Origin: a virus
DNA length: 48,760 nt
Direction: 5' to 3' (one strand)
IMG/VR virus record: IMGVR_UViG_3300037840_000235
Coordinates: 1 to 48,760 of that record
Positions 32,170-44,724 of this stretch are shown piece after piece. The notes beneath the pieces were generated by a model, which saw only the letters and a program-made list of their open reading frames with translations, was not told the origin of the DNA and made no database searches. A program made the position numbers and the translations under genes. Position 1 is the stretch's first letter. Each line of letters begins with the position of its first letter.

Positions 32170-32211
32170 GCAGGCTAAGGGTAAATCAAACAGCAGAGAG
32201 AGGAGGCAGCG

Positions 32212-32820
32212 ATGACAGCAAAGGAAGCTTTGGAGCGGTATGCAGTAGATAGGGATTTGGGCAGGGCGAACCTGCGCGGGGCGGACCTGAGCGGGGCGGA
32301 CCTGAGCGGGGCGGACTTGCACTGGGCGGACTTGCACTGGGCGGACCTTCGCGGGGCGAACCTGAGCGAGGCGAACTTGCGCGGGGCGAACCTGAGCGAG
32401 GCGAACTTGCGCGGGGCGGACCTGAGCGGGGCGGACTTGCGCAGGGCGGACCTTCGCGGGGCGAACCTGAGCGAGGCGAACTTGCGCGAGGCGAACTTAC
32501 GCGGGGCGGACCTGAGCGGGGCGGACCTGAGCGGGGCGAACTTGCGCAGGGCGGACTTGCGCGGGGCGAACTTGCGCGAGGCGGACCTTCGCGGGGCGAA
32601 ACAGCGCATCGTGCAAATATCGGCAACTCGCCATCAGATCATAGCTATTGATGACGAGGTGAGGATAGGGTGTAGGCGGCAGCGGTTAGGGTGGTGGGTT
32701 GACAATTACCAAGAGGTCGGGAAGGAGGAGGGGTACAGCGAGGCCGAGGTTGAGTTGTATGGGGGGCTGCTGAAGGCGTTGGTGAGTGGCAAATCAAAAG
32801 AGAAGGAGGAGGCGCAATGA
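32212..32820 (+). CDS. Pentapeptide-repeat protein
   Basis: 202 residues, ATG 32212, nine bases after GGAGG. Residues 15-129 are 23 consecutive pentapeptides of the A(D/N)LxxA type (NLRGA, DLSGA, DLHWA, NLSEA, DLRRA), predicted to form a right-handed quadrilateral beta helix about six coils long. The C-terminal 73 residues are not repeats; they contain RHQIIAID-DEVRIGC and WWVDNYQEVGKEEGYSEAEV, a tail I recall from phage pentapeptide proteins. Known members (Qnr, MfpA) mimic DNA and bind gyrase, but most phage members have no known target. The repeats are nearly identical at DNA level. Confidence 0.85.
   Translation: MTAKEALERYAVDRDLGRANLRGADLSGADLSGADLHWADLHWADLRGANLSEANLRGANLSEANLRGADLSGADLRRADLRGANLSEANLREANLRGADLSGADLSGANLRRADLRGANLREADLRGAKQRIVQISATRHQIIAIDDEVRIGCRRQRLGWWVDNYQEVGKEEGYSEAEVELYGGLLKALVSGKSKEKEEAQ
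32254..32598 (+). repeat. 15-bp tandem repeat array encoding pentapeptides
   Basis: Twenty-three 15-base units of the form GCGGGGCGGACCTGA and variants. They differ mainly by GAC/AAC (Asp/Asn) and CTGAGC/TTGCGC choices. The uniformity implies recent expansion or recombination, and copy number could vary between relatives. Confidence 0.85.
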
Positions 32821-34763: not shown

Positions 34764-35945
34764 TCAAACCGCCTGCCCAAAAGCTTCCTGATAGAGCTTG
34801 ATGAACGATTCTGACAGTTGCAGAATATCCTCGCGCACCTGATTGTCGAGGATTCCAATGGCGCGAAGCTCGGCAACCTGCCAAGCTACGCTCTGTTGGA
34901 TGAGGCCGGTATAGGTTGTTATCTCATAGAGCGAACACTTAGCCCCGGCAGATAGGGCTTCGATGATCATCCACCGGACTTCGGGCACACTGTCCCTAGC
35001 CATACGGGCAGCCAAGGCTAAGTCTGAATCGTCAGCCACCCTACCGGCCAAGTCGGCGCTGGCTGTGACTACCAGATGCATGGCGTTAACGAGGCGGGTA
35101 GGTAGCTCGGGCGGCGAAACCTCAGCAATGGTTCGGCGGTCAGCGTCGGGGCGCACCACGTGGCGGCGGGCGTGCGCAACCACCTCAGCCATTGCTAACA
35201 GGCGCTCGTAGTATTGCTCGGGCATTGAGGCGGCGGACGTGGCGCTGGCCCCGGCGACCAAGGCTTGGCTAAGGTCGCGGAGGCCCTTGTTTATTTCTTG
35301 GCGGTGCTCGGACTGCTTGACCATAGCGCGGCCCGCCGGGCGCATCGGCGGGACAATCAGGCGGACATTGACAAAGCGCTCACCCAGGTCGCGGTTGACC
35401 GACCAAGCCCGCTCAATTACCGGGGTACATGCCGCGACTATGGTTAGGCGGCCACACCATGATTGTGACCCGCTTTCGCCTGTCTCTTTGTTCCACCGCC
35501 CATCATAGATACGGCGTAGCTGGCCCGCAATCGCTTTGCGGTCGTCCTCCCTTTTAGATAAGAAGGTGGTGAAGTCAGAGAAGAGGAGCATGGCGTTGGA
35601 GCCGAGGCGGTTGAGGAGGGAGCGGGATTTGAGTTTGGCGGAGAGGAAGGTTGAGGGGGTGAGGTCGTCTAGACATTCGGAGTTTGGGAAGCTGGTTAGA
35701 GCTTCGATGTGCAGGGCGGTTTTGGATGAGCCGGGCGGCCCTACTATGAACAGCCATACCGGTAGCTGGTGCTGGTATAGGGAGGTTTGCCCAACCGCCA
35801 GGGCGATGCGCAGGGCTTCTAGATCGGGGGCGTAAAACCATTTGTCCGCGAAGGCGCATAGGTTGTTCCAAGCTTGTTGTTGGGGAGTGATGGTTGGTTC
35901 ACGGCGGGTAATGTCGGCGTACCTATCCGTAGGTTGCGATTGCAT
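34764..35945 (-). CDS. P-loop (AAA+-type) ATPase with C-terminal winged helix
   Basis: 393 residues, ATG 35945 with GGAGGG six bases before it. Walker A GPPGSSKT is at about 69-76. A Walker B-like strand AMLLFSDFTTFLSKREDDRK is near 118-137. LTIVAACTPVIERAW (about 165) is sensor-1-like, and DLGERFVNVRL (about 184) fits an arginine-finger region. Residues 330-390 look like a winged helix (LYEITTYTGLIQQSVAWQVA). Related proteins in plasmids and phages act in replication initiation or as helicase-type motors. It is the only minus-strand gene between two plus-strand operons and has its own promoter and structured leader. The exact family is not fixed. Confidence 0.65.
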   Translation of the reverse strand: MQSQPTDRYADITRREPTITPQQQAWNNLCAFADKWFYAPDLEALRIALAVGQTSLYQHQLPVWLFIVGPPGSSKTALHIEALTSFPNSECLDDLTPSTFLSAKLKSRSLLNRLGSNAMLLFSDFTTFLSKREDDRKAIAGQLRRIYDGRWNKETGESGSQSWCGRLTIVAACTPVIERAWSVNRDLGERFVNVRLIVPPMRPAGRAMVKQSEHRQEINKGLRDLSQALVAGASATSAASMPEQYYERLLAMAEVVAHARRHVVRPDADRRTIAEVSPPELPTRLVNAMHLVVTASADLAGRVADDSDLALAARMARDSVPEVRWMIIEALSAGAKCSLYEITTYTGLIQQSVAWQVAELRAIGILDNQVREDILQLSESFIKLYQEAFGQAV

Positions 35946-35951
35946 CAGCGA

Positions 35952-36017
35952 CCCTCCACATCAAAGAGAGTACCGGGAAGGTTGATGTGGGGAGCTGGGA
36001 ACTCCCACCTTCCCGGT
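35952..36017 (-). promoter_or_regulatory. Leader with two mutually exclusive hairpins next to the ATPase ribosome site
   Basis: On the minus-strand RNA, ACCGGGAAGGT (36017-36007) can pair with ACCTTCCCGGT (35982-35972), 11 bp. Alternatively CCACATCAA (35990-35982) can pair with TTGATGTGG (35964-35956), 9 bp. The two share base 35982 and interleave, so both cannot form fully. The second hairpin ends in the GG that begins the GGAGGG ribosome site (35957-35952), and further C-G/T-G pairs could cover the site. This is the layout of a translational switch; alternatively the repeats may be DNA operators. Confidence 0.5.
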
Positions 36018-36053
36018 TTAATCCTAGCTTCCGGTTGGCCGACCGGCCCAAAC

Positions 36054-36082
36054 ACTGTATAGCAAAGGGTTTGAGAGGTCAA
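36054..36082 (-). promoter_or_regulatory. Candidate promoter for the ATPase gene
   Basis: Read on the minus strand: TTGACC at 36082-36077, a 17-base spacer, and TACAGT at 36059-36054 (5/6 and 4/6 matches to sigma70 boxes). The predicted start near 36047 leaves a leader of about 100 bases that contains the competing hairpins. A second TTGACC lies 18 bases upstream of the first (forward ggtcaa near 36097-36102). Confidence 0.5.
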
Positions 36083-36115
36083 TGAAAAAAGTTTGCGGTC
36101 AATAGCAGATTCCCC

Positions 36116-36144
36116 TTGACAACTTTTAGGGTCGCGGGTAAAGT
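36116..36144 (+). promoter_or_regulatory. Strong sigma70-like promoter of the replication operon (leaderless)
   Basis: TTGACA (36116-36121, 6/6) and TAAAGT (36139-36144, 4/6) with exactly 17 bases between. The -10 ends seven bases before ATG 36152, so the transcript would begin at or just before the start codon. It is divergent from the ATPase promoter 34 bases away. Confidence 0.65.
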
Positions 36145-39170: not shown

Positions 39171-39764
39171 ATGAAGGTTTCGTTCGCAGACACAGACCTC
39201 GATACCTACTTGGCTTGTGCGGGACTAGTGGTGCAGGGTGACCGGCCCGACCGGAGTACGGGCACCCTGCATCTCAGCCAAATCTACCGCGAGCTTGACG
39301 ACGCCATCAACCCTAAGAAAGAGATGGGGGAGAGGGATTTGCGGGTGTATAGGTTGTTTGGGTTGCAGTTTGAGCGGGTGATGGCCGACGCCTACCAGTT
39401 ACGCGACCCTGAGAGATTTGTATCAAGCAAAGAGGTTGAGTGCGAGGGGATTGTGGGTAGCCCGGACATGCTCGACATGGCGACCTATACGGTGGTTGAT
39501 TTCAAGCTCAAATGGAAAAGCATGAAGCGGCTGGCTAATCTGGAGCGCGACTTCTTTGCCGACGTGTGCCAAAACAAAGCCTATTGCCGGATGTTAGGTG
39601 AGGGCTGGCGCAAGGGTTTGTTGGTAATGGGGTTTGTCAACGGAGACTACAAAGAGAGCGGGCCGAGGGTGGTTGAGGTGAGCATGGAGCATACGGAGCA
39701 AGAGCTAGAGGAGAATTGGACGCTTATCAAAAACCACGCGAGGAGCAGGGGGTGGCTGCCATGA
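39171..39764 (+). CDS. PD-(D/E)XK nuclease (Cas4/RecB-like exonuclease)
   Basis: 197 residues, ATG 39171. The core is G-S-P-D-M-L-D (about 95-101) followed by T-V-V-D-F-K-L-K-W-K (about 105-114), i.e. motif II Asp and motif III (D)xK of PD-(D/E)XK nucleases. An N-terminal LHLSQIYRELDDAIN helix and GLQFERVMADAYQ (E at about 65, motif I) and the C-terminal QNKAYCRMLGEGWRK (QxxxY motif) fit the RecB/Cas4-like branch. No Fe-S Cys set is seen. Probable DNA-end resection with the Sak4-like ATPase. Confidence 0.8.
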   Translation: MKVSFADTDLDTYLACAGLVVQGDRPDRSTGTLHLSQIYRELDDAINPKKEMGERDLRVYRLFGLQFERVMADAYQLRDPERFVSSKEVECEGIVGSPDMLDMATYTVVDFKLKWKSMKRLANLERDFFADVCQNKAYCRMLGEGWRKGLLVMGFVNGDYKESGPRVVEVSMEHTEQELEENWTLIKNHARSRGWLP

Positions 39765-41967: not shown

Positions 41968-42157
41968 CAAACGCATAGGAGATCACGTAGGAGATTACGA
42001 GGACATGGTGGCGCGGTTGATACTACAGCCCTTGGCGGAGCGCGACAATCCAATATCCAAAGACGACTATATCTATCTTGGTATAGCGATATCGTCAGCA
42101 ATGCGAGGCGCTAAGCAAGCAGGCCGCGACGAGGTTAACGAGGCGGAAGGCAACTGA
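41960..42157 (+). CDS. Small hypothetical protein before the polymerase gene
   Basis: 65 residues from ATG 41960, overlapping the ERCC4 gene by eight bases and the polymerase ATG by one base. MANKRIGDHVGDYEDMVARL, ISKDDYIYLGIAISSAMRGA is a soluble helical protein without Cys. No family recognised. Tight overlaps on both sides suggest coupling to the nuclease and polymerase. Confidence 0.6.
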   Translation: MANKRIGDHVGDYEDMVARLILQPLAERDNPISKDDYIYLGIAISSAMRGAKQAGRDEVNEAEGN

Positions 42158-44724
42158 TGATCAAGCGGCTCAACGGCTCAACCACTCCCGAAGCTGACTT
42201 GTCGGGCGCAAAGGTGCCGGGCGCGGGCGTCCCACACTCCGCGCTGATAGTGGTGGGCGAGAGGCCGGGGAAGATCGAGGCGATGCGCGGCGAGCCCTTC
42301 TGCGGCCCCGACGGCCAACTCCTTGACACCTGCTGGCGGCATGCGGATATTCCGATGACCAGAGAGCAGGCTTGGGTGACTAACTTGGTAGACGACTTTC
42401 AAGACTATGGGCACCCCGAGCCCGATGAGATTGAGGCTAACACTCCCCGGCTGATCGCGGAGTTAGTTGGCGCAAAGTGGGTGATGGCTGTAGGGGCCTT
42501 CGCGCTGCGCTGGTTTCTAGGCGACATCAGTATGGATTTGGCGCACGGTATTCCGCATTGGTGGAAGCGTCCGGCGACCGAGGCGGCGGCGATTGTGGTT
42601 CCTGTACTCCACCCTGGCTCAGCGATTTATTCGCCGGAGGATTTGGCAACCACTTGGTGGGATATGCAGCAGATGGGGAAAGTGATGAGGGGGGAGATTG
42701 GGCCGCCGGTTGACCAACAGGCCGTGTGCGCCTACTACGTTCATCCTACCGATATTAGCGCTGTCACGTCCGGGTTGCCGGTCGCGGTTGACACTGAAGG
42801 CAGTGTGCGCAACCCTTGGGGATACTCTTATACGCAAAGCGCAGGATACGCGACGGTCGCTAGCGCCAAACAAATAACGCCAATGCGCGGCTCTTGCCTG
42901 CTTTTGCACAATAGCCCTCATGATTGGCCGGTGCTCGAAGCGCTCAACGTCGATATTGAAGGGGTGCCGTGGGACGATACGATGTACAAAGCCTACAACC
43001 TCCCTGGCATCCACCGGCTGTCGCTGAAAGACCTTGCTTATAGGCTCTGCGGCATGGCGATGCAGGAGTACGAGGAGGTGATGGGGGAGGCGGCGAACGG
43101 CTTAGCCATAGTGTGGCTGGAACATATCCCCGAGCACCTGCGCTGCCTGAAAGAGGGTAAGGGGTGGACGCTCGGGCGGCGGGTAGACGCGATCCTTAAA
43201 GACTACGCCCAAGGCTTTGATACGCTGCCCGCCGAGTATCAGAAACTCAGCGTCAGCGACCGCTGGGACAAGGTGGTTGAGGATCACCCGGACTGGCTGC
43301 AAATGGTGACGGACGCCATAGGCCCGATCCCCGAATCCACCCTAGACGACATACCGGAGGAGGTGGCGATCAGGTACGCTGGTAGAGACGCCGACGCTAC
43401 CCTGCGCATCAACCCGAAGCTAGACGCGCTGCTTGACGAATGGGGCACCCGGCGGTCGTATGAGCTGGATAAATCGGTGCTGCCCGCGCTGAGCAGGATG
43501 GTGCAGGTCGGGGTGAAGATGAACGCGGACAAACTGCGGGCCTTGGCGGCAGAGATGACTAGGAGGATGGAGGAGTTGAGGGCGCAGCTTGGGATCAACC
43601 CCCGTAGTGGGCTGCAAGTCGCCAAGCTCCTGTTCGATGACTTGGGCATCAAGCACAAAAAGCTGACTCCTACCGGCCAACGGATGATCGACAACCGCCT
43701 CCTTGAGAGCATACGGCATCAATGTTGGCAGGCCGGGGCCATTGCGGACTATCGGGAATACGGGGTGAACCGTGACAACTTCTGTACCAATCTCCTGGCT
43801 GCTATGGATCGTAGTGGTCGTATACATCCTGATATGGGCATCTTTGCCAAGTCTGGAAGATTCACTTGTAAAGCACCTAATATGCTTGGTCTTCCTGTTC
43901 TTAGCGACGTTGGCATTCTTATTCGGGACGCGGTAGAGGCTGACGAGGGGCGCATCCTGGGGGAGTGGGACTATTCGCAACAGGAAATCCGCTGGTTGGC
44001 GCACCTGAGCCAAGACCCTAAACTATGCCGCGCATACTTTAACAAAGAGGATGTCCATGCGAACACCGCCGCAGAAATGTTTGGTATACCGCTCGGTCAG
44101 GTTGATGAACTCAAACACCGTTTTCCGGCTAAGCGTGTCACTTGTGCAGCTTACGGCGGAATCACCGAAGACGGGGTGCTCGCGCAGATGGATAGGTCCG
44201 GGGCTAATAGCGCTCGGGCTCGGGCTGGGCTGCCTGTTTTCACTCTGGAAGATACTAAGCGAATGATCACCGAGTGGTTCCGCATCTATCCGGGCGCGGC
44301 GAGGTTTATGGAGGAGTGCCGCGCCGAAGCCAGGAGGTTTGGGTATGTGCGGGACTATTGGGGCCGGGTGACGCTGCTACCCGGTGTGTGGAGCAATATC
44401 GGGAAGGTAAGGGCGCACGCGGAGAGGCAAGCGCCGAGTTACCATATTCAGGGAGGGGCGGCGGGGCAGCTCAAACGGGCGATAGCTGCGTTGTGGCCGT
44501 GGTTTGAGCGGTGGCGGGCGGACGGTATATACGCGGAGCTGCTGTTGCCGGTGCACGACGCGCTGCTATGTGAGTTTGCAGACAGGCCGGATCACCACAT
44601 ACGGGCGTCACACGCGGCCTTTGACGTGGTGGTGGCCGGTGAGATGGATGCGGCGGTTGAGCTTAGGGTGCCGGTCGTGGCGAAGGGGGCGTTTGGGAGG
44701 ACATGGAAGGAGACTAAGAAATGA
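42157..44724 (+). CDS. UDG-domain fused family A DNA polymerase
   Basis: 855 residues, ATG 42157. Residues about 25-175 are a family 4/5-like uracil-DNA glycosylase fold: GERPGKIEAMRGEPFCGPDG (34-53), VTNLV, and VLHPGSAIY near 155. No Fe-S Cys are present, so activity is uncertain. Residues about 205-430 are 3'-5' exonuclease: VDTEG (D-x-E), LLHNSPHDWPVL, YAGRDADATL. The polymerase has motif A DYSQQEIR (about 605), an O-helix RFPAKRVTCAAYGG (about 655) and motif C VHDALL (about 799). The O-helix spacing and motif C differ from the family norm. It is the replicative polymerase. Confidence 0.85.
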   Translation: MIKRLNGSTTPEADLSGAKVPGAGVPHSALIVVGERPGKIEAMRGEPFCGPDGQLLDTCWRHADIPMTREQAWVTNLVDDFQDYGHPEPDEIEANTPRLIAELVGAKWVMAVGAFALRWFLGDISMDLAHGIPHWWKRPATEAAAIVVPVLHPGSAIYSPEDLATTWWDMQQMGKVMRGEIGPPVDQQAVCAYYVHPTDISAVTSGLPVAVDTEGSVRNPWGYSYTQSAGYATVASAKQITPMRGSCLLLHNSPHDWPVLEALNVDIEGVPWDDTMYKAYNLPGIHRLSLKDLAYRLCGMAMQEYEEVMGEAANGLAIVWLEHIPEHLRCLKEGKGWTLGRRVDAILKDYAQGFDTLPAEYQKLSVSDRWDKVVEDHPDWLQMVTDAIGPIPESTLDDIPEEVAIRYAGRDADATLRINPKLDALLDEWGTRRSYELDKSVLPALSRMVQVGVKMNADKLRALAAEMTRRMEELRAQLGINPRSGLQVAKLLFDDLGIKHKKLTPTGQRMIDNRLLESIRHQCWQAGAIADYREYGVNRDNFCTNLLAAMDRSGRIHPDMGIFAKSGRFTCKAPNMLGLPVLSDVGILIRDAVEADEGRILGEWDYSQQEIRWLAHLSQDPKLCRAYFNKEDVHANTAAEMFGIPLGQVDELKHRFPAKRVTCAAYGGITEDGVLAQMDRSGANSARARAGLPVFTLEDTKRMITEWFRIYPGAARFMEECRAEARRFGYVRDYWGRVTLLPGVWSNIGKVRAHAERQAPSYHIQGGAAGQLKRAIAALWPWFERWRADGIYAELLLPVHDALLCEFADRPDHHIRASHAAFDVVVAGEMDAAVELRVPVVAKGAFGRTWKETKK

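Follow-up and report, generated by a model that had tools for sequence, protein, structure and literature searches.

Results

The leader lies 5' of a predicted replicative helicase gene

The window (the full 48,760-nt stretch of IMGVR_UViG_3300037840_000235) carries on its minus strand an ATPase gene preceded by a structured leader (Table 1). The ATPase matched no sequence family, Pfam returning just AAA_16 at E=0.042 and no MCM. Its AlphaFold model (ten homologues; pLDDT 86, pTM 0.87), however, resembled MCM helicases in every match listed by Foldseek and VIA, the best reaching Z scores up to 18.7 with an rmsd of 4.3 over 278 aligned residues. As Pfam gave no MCM match, the protein is described here as having an MCM-like fold and not as a member of the named family. 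In the model the final 70 residues resemble a winged helix. A related ATPase domain in L059 (656-2674) is fused to Prim-Pol and PriCT-1 domains, and a survey of mobile-element primases reported that MCM, RepA and DnaB helicase domains interchange beside such primases (PMC5862659). The model, the fusion and the survey together suggest that the window ATPase is most likely the motor of a phage replicative helicase, presumably working as a hexamer.

Table 1. Features of the leader, its gene and the neighbouring nuclease-like gene, in window coordinates
Feature	Position	Strand	Basis
Predicted MCM-like AAA+ motor (393 aa), C-terminal winged helix, standing alone	34764..35945	-	AlphaFold and structure comparison
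Hairpin S3, ACUCUCU-UUGAUGU-GGAGGGU, window-specific	35951..35971	-	nested ensemble of the 75-nt leader
Shine-Dalgarno GGAGGG	35952..35957	-	sequence
Pseudoknot stem S2, 3' arm UUGAUGUGG, extending into the ribosome site	35956..35964	-	
Pseudoknot stem S1, 3' arm ACCUUCCCGGU	35972..35982	-	arm complementarity, shuffles
Pseudoknot stem S2, 5' arm CCACAUCAA	35982..35990 (35983-35990 within the pseudoknot)	-	arm complementarity
Loop-1 mini-hairpin GGGAGUU-CCC-AGCUCCC	35990..36006	-	window only
Pseudoknot stem S1, 5' arm ACCGGGAAGGU	36007..36017	-	arm complementarity, shuffles
P1 hairpin CCGGU-CGGCCA-ACCGG, loop nGGCCn	36031..36046	-	-101 from the start codon
Sigma70-like promoter TTGACC-17-TACAGT	36054..36082	-	consensus match only
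PD-(D/E)XK nuclease-like gene	39171..39764	+	

The relatives described below have TTGACA or TTGAAT at a place comparable to that of the sigma70-like promoter, whose sequence is consistent with a transcription start just upstream of the leader. In the window this element stands back-to-back with a plus-strand TTGACA-TAAAGT (36116-36144), accompanied by an inverted repeat, AAAAGTT/AACTTTT (36087-36093 and 36121-36127); this arrangement may possibly constitute a shared operator. Leader open reading frames are not conserved among the phages and S1 has no U run after it, and thus a leader peptide and a terminator or attenuator were rejected as readings of the leader. Elsewhere in the window, 42157-44724 encodes an 855-aa protein that, judged from its translation, appears to combine a uracil-DNA-glycosylase-like N-terminal part with a family A DNA polymerase. 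A plus-strand pentapeptide-repeat-like gene with ADLRGANLSEANL repeats (32212-32820) generates long spurious open frames on the opposite strand (32175-32820).

Two interleaved stems can form a pseudoknot at the ribosome site

A first-pass annotation of this DNA described an 11-bp and a 9-bp hairpin in the leader as mutually exclusive. Both arm pairs are indeed present on the minus strand (36017-36007 with 35982-35972, and 35990-35982 with 35964-35956) and are perfectly complementary, and the end of the second, as described, takes in the leading GG of GGAGGG (35957-35952). The arms, however, follow the order a-b-a'-b' and share the single base 35982. Because they interleave and overlap at this base only, the two stems are not alternatives but can coexist, with 11 and 8 bp, as an H-type pseudoknot. 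Nor do the nested hairpins form a balanced pair, the 75-nt leader folding at -36.1 kcal/mol with hairpin 1 and at -23.8 kcal/mol when hairpin 2 is forced, a difference of 12 kcal/mol. The pseudoknot score at the ribosome site was equalled by one of 5000 dinucleotide shuffles of the window leader, which ranked third among 1550 start codons in 24 related contigs, and the 105-nt leader was more stable than its shuffles (z -3.2).

The 3' arm of S2 overlaps the ribosome site by two bases in the window, and by more only with a C-A mismatch or through S3. In the latter hairpin 35971-35965 pair with 35957-35951, engaging the entire ribosome site and leaving most of the S2 3' arm in the loop, from which a kissing contact with 35988-35982 is possible. 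Ensemble folding of the 75-nt leader with nested pairs gives the ribosome-site bases a pairing probability of about 1, and the site is predicted to be occluded in either fold, pseudoknot or S3 hairpin. Loop 1, which is 2-7 nt in the other phages, is longer in the window, where it contains a mini-hairpin.

The pseudoknot recurs before replication ATPases of related phages

Direct protein searches with the window ATPase gave no match in phages, plasmids, IMG/VR or GTDB contigs. Relatives were reached through 24 contigs with related major-capsid proteins, which yielded one ATPase homologue (L032), and through later alignments, which added L034, L044, L045 and homologues in bacterial MAGs. The proteins of L032, L044 and L045, which were found by protein similarity alone and not by RNA, are 33-36% identical to the window ATPase, and in each of their leaders the loop of a hairpin (S1) pairs with the Shine-Dalgarno to give S2. 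The pseudoknots of these diverged homologues are unrelated in sequence and keep the same spacing to the start codon. No such pseudoknot precedes the operon-internal homologues L034, L037, L039, L042, L043 and L060, and only a weak one precedes the L040 homologue. Loss of both pairs with the gene kept, which had been named as a refuting observation, was thus confined to distant, non-phage or operon-borne homologues.

An architecture scan of 842 gene starts was extended to 1550 starts in 24 related contigs. Gene-start scans, including one that also required P1, added L078 and L072, while L111 (in G017) was found through homology to the L078 protein; its pseudoknot is the strongest of all, with S2 covering the Shine-Dalgarno. 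All seven replication-ATPase leaders, those of the window and six related uncultured phages, rank in the top ten of the 1550 starts, and the three other starts that also reach -30 probably do so by chance. Compared with one in 5000 for the window, the score was reached by eight shuffles for L032 and none for L044, L045 or L111; the six for L078 and 19 for L072 are post hoc values, as the structural scan itself had found both. Across the seven leaders S1 spans 6-13 bp, S2 6-9 bp, loop 2 0-3 nt and loop 3 5-10 nt, and the S2 3' arm ends at -6 to -11 from the start codon.

Upstream of the pseudoknot, P1, with its six-base loop nGGCCn, opens six of the seven leaders at -97 to -105 from the start codon, where about 0.0006 would be expected by chance per 10-position slot; the GGCC loop is absent from L111. 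In L032, L045, L072 and L078 a second hairpin, P2 (U[A/G]CC/GG[U/C]A), follows P1, and the 5' domain as a whole (CCUGGCCGGG, U[A/G]CC..GG[U/C]A, GCGU/AUGU) keeps more sequence than the pseudoknot. P2 has no clear counterpart in the window.

Pairing is conserved through compensatory change

Each of the 42 anchored S2 pairs forms within its own leader, whereas exchanging arms between phages leaves 47%, and three to five pair types occur at each position. Similarly, all 30 P1 pairs form in their own context against 54% with swapped arms, the stem covarying in six phages. In alignment A8, 11 of 21 nested pairs have changed on both sides, a number reached in none of 500 shuffles. As MAFFT alignments that include the window misalign the arms, covariation for the window was counted on anchored arms. 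A search of homologous leaders for covariation, which had been proposed as a check, therefore gave a positive answer for P1, S1 and S2 in A8 and the anchored arms, pairing being kept through compensatory change in a sample of seven leader sequences.

A covariance model trained without L044 recovered the leader of that phage (E=0.0017 in 974 kb). The model missed the window and L111 leaders, reflecting the longer loop 1 and lack of a clear P2 in the former and the lack of a GGCC loop in the latter. These misses set a real limit on grouping all seven as one family by the 5' domain; what they have in common is the pseudoknot and its position.

Against all 4227 families of Rfam 15 the window had no match at gathering score, the best leader-region scores falling far below the cut-offs, and L032, L044 and L045 gave one unrelated weak match only. 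The L078 leader had no blastn match in phages. In 396 genomes from the phylum of the Acidobacteria MAG the exact P1 string found only two-mismatch matches (15 genomes), a reversed control giving a few more, and the one match examined in bacterial genomes lay within coding sequence. The covariance model returned three weak matches from the same genomes, the best antisense within a murB-like gene. Both sets were dismissed as chance.

The element remains while the ATPase changes

The ATPase of L078 (244 aa) is AAA_25-like, L111 encodes its homologue, and that of L072 (346 aa) matches AAA_25 at E=2.5e-9; an AlphaFold model of the L078 protein (pLDDT 44) was left out of the analysis. No mutual similarity between the MCM-like, L072 AAA_25 and L078/L111 AAA_25-like ATPases was detected by BLASTP. 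Because three leaders (L072, L078 and L111) precede ATPases without detectable similarity to that of the window, the element is retained at the locus when its gene is displaced. The PD-(D/E)XK gene occurs in six of the seven leader carriers, and SSB-like and Sak-like genes in five of them; none of these genes was seen in a non-carrier contig, while structural genes are common to both groups. Gene content therefore suggests that the leader tracks the replication module, although the absences are weak as several contigs are fragments.

Some 110-215 nt upstream of 13347 (minus strand) in L078 is a hairpin with the anti-Shine-Dalgarno-like loop UCCUCCUGAG, which is kept in L072, L032 and L045; in L078 and L032 a terminator-like hairpin and a U run come next. 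Located just upstream of the ATPase promoter, it is a candidate small RNA; read on the opposite strand, the loop is similar to the ribosome site of a conserved divergent gene of ~55 aa. No upstream hairpin of this type was seen in the window or L044.

Discussion

The leader described here is, in all probability, a cis-acting translational OFF switch for a phage replicative helicase, in which an H-type pseudoknot would occlude the Shine-Dalgarno. This reading is favoured because the pairing is conserved in preference to the sequence, is locked to the start codon and is kept across gene displacement; indeed, comparison of the leaders shows a shared topology, covariation of P1, S1 and S2, and retention before unrelated ATPases. 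Transcription would start just upstream of P1, with S1 forming about 30 nt further on. The 3' part of the S1 loop could then pair with the stretch leading into or covering the Shine-Dalgarno, generating S2, and the resulting pseudoknot would keep ribosomes off until opened, the folded state thereby lowering translation. A factor supplied in trans, be it a protein of the phage or its host or else a small molecule, may act on the 5' P1/P2 domain to open or stabilise the pseudoknot. The first-pass proposal of a translational control leader touching the ribosome site of a replication gene is thus supported by the compensatory changes in the phage relatives, and its suggestion that the leader times replication is plausible given a gene product modelled as an MCM-like helicase.

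The same proposal implied that the ATPase regulates its own synthesis. In such feedback the protein would bind its leader and hold it closed, in the manner of T4 gp32 and the gene 32 transcript. A phage replication protein acting through a leader pseudoknot is thus a known logic (PMC535899, PMC3014915), and the predicted winged helix would fit it. The same RNA contact, however, would need to have evolved independently in the MCM-like, L072 AAA_25 and L078/L111 AAA_25-like proteins, and we regard feedback repression as improbable. As ATPases without detectable similarity have the same leader, the switch is probably opened by another factor; one common to these phages, or belonging to the host, is more likely than ATPase feedback, and a metabolite is possible. 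It could be argued that the leader is a metabolite riboswitch in which P1, with its GGCC loop, and P2 bind a ligand. The greater sequence conservation of the 5' domain than of the pseudoknot in four phages argues for this, and Shine-Dalgarno occlusion by a pseudoknot is a usual expression platform. Aptamer cores, however, are normally near-invariant, whereas no P2 can be recognised in the window and L111 has no GGCC loop; moreover, the downstream genes encode replication ATPases rather than functions in metabolism or transport, and Rfam offers no match. A riboswitch is, on this evidence, unlikely.

The possibility that the pseudoknot activates translation, or answers an antisense or loop-binding RNA, has a precedent in IncIalpha repZ, a replication initiator translated only when its leader pseudoknot has formed and blocked by an antisense RNA (PMC8383071), and four phages have, upstream, the candidate small RNA whose loop resembles an anti-Shine-Dalgarno. 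Nevertheless, a pseudoknot stem that contains or abuts the Shine-Dalgarno predicts blocking, no leader open reading frame is conserved, and no such upstream hairpin was seen in the window or L044, making such a mechanism distinctly improbable. The leader is also GC-rich, and strong hairpins therefore arise easily, the 105-nt shuffles averaging -34.8 kcal/mol; that the pairing reflects chance, or a DNA-level feature such as origin stem-loops with no translational role, is hard to reconcile with the shuffle and gene-start controls, the lock to the start codon and the compensatory changes, and is very improbable indeed.

Here a presumed regulatory RNA has survived replacement of its target gene, since both an MCM-like motor and AAA_25-like ATPases are encoded directly behind it. 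Tentatively, and with the balance somewhat against it, these leaders might constitute a portable class of regulatory RNA in uncultured phages, in which a 5' sensor (P1 and P2) is coupled to a pseudoknot platform free to vary. Such RNAs would sense a replication-related signal, either a protein of the PD-(D/E)XK/SSB-like module or a nucleotide, and meter whichever replicative ATPase is carried. The system opens to test how a phage sets the dose of its replicative helicase, with seven diverged sequences for finding the signal.

A search of the literature on pseudoknots, phage and replication or Acidobacteria gave no description of this leader, which seems to be a hitherto undescribed RNA switch governing the onset of phage DNA replication. 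In several translational riboswitches (preQ1, SAM-II, SAM-V and SAM/SAH) the Shine-Dalgarno lies within or next to the second stem of an H-type pseudoknot. In contrast with these, the pseudoknot sequence here is free to vary provided it pairs, there is no known aptamer, and replication genes lie downstream. Shine-Dalgarno-proximal pseudoknots also control translation in the S15 and S4/alpha operon leaders, but the gene here does not encode a ribosomal protein and no such Rfam family was matched. Translational pseudoknots in phage replication genes have very rarely been described, and a 2010 review considered that of T4-type gene 32 possibly the sole viral example in translation autoregulation (PMC3014915). 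The T4/RB69 gene 32 operator resembles the present leader in combining a phage replication gene, a leader pseudoknot and translational control. In T4 nucleation takes place at a pseudoknot set apart upstream, beyond which lies a less structured ribosome-site stretch that gp32 coats (PMC535899). That layout, with its UUAAA/UAAA repeats, was not found here, where the S2 3' arm ends at -6 to -11, the stem itself extends to or over the Shine-Dalgarno, a hairpin with a GGCC loop stands at the 5' end, and the genes that have the leader in common are unrelated. The IncIalpha repZ leader is similar in that a pseudoknot gates a replication protein, but there the pseudoknot activates and an antisense RNA regulates (PMC8383071), whereas here it should block, and the window yielded neither an antisense RNA nor a leader peptide. 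Of the known systems, the T4 gene 32 operator and the repZ leader come closest, and the window leader differs from both.
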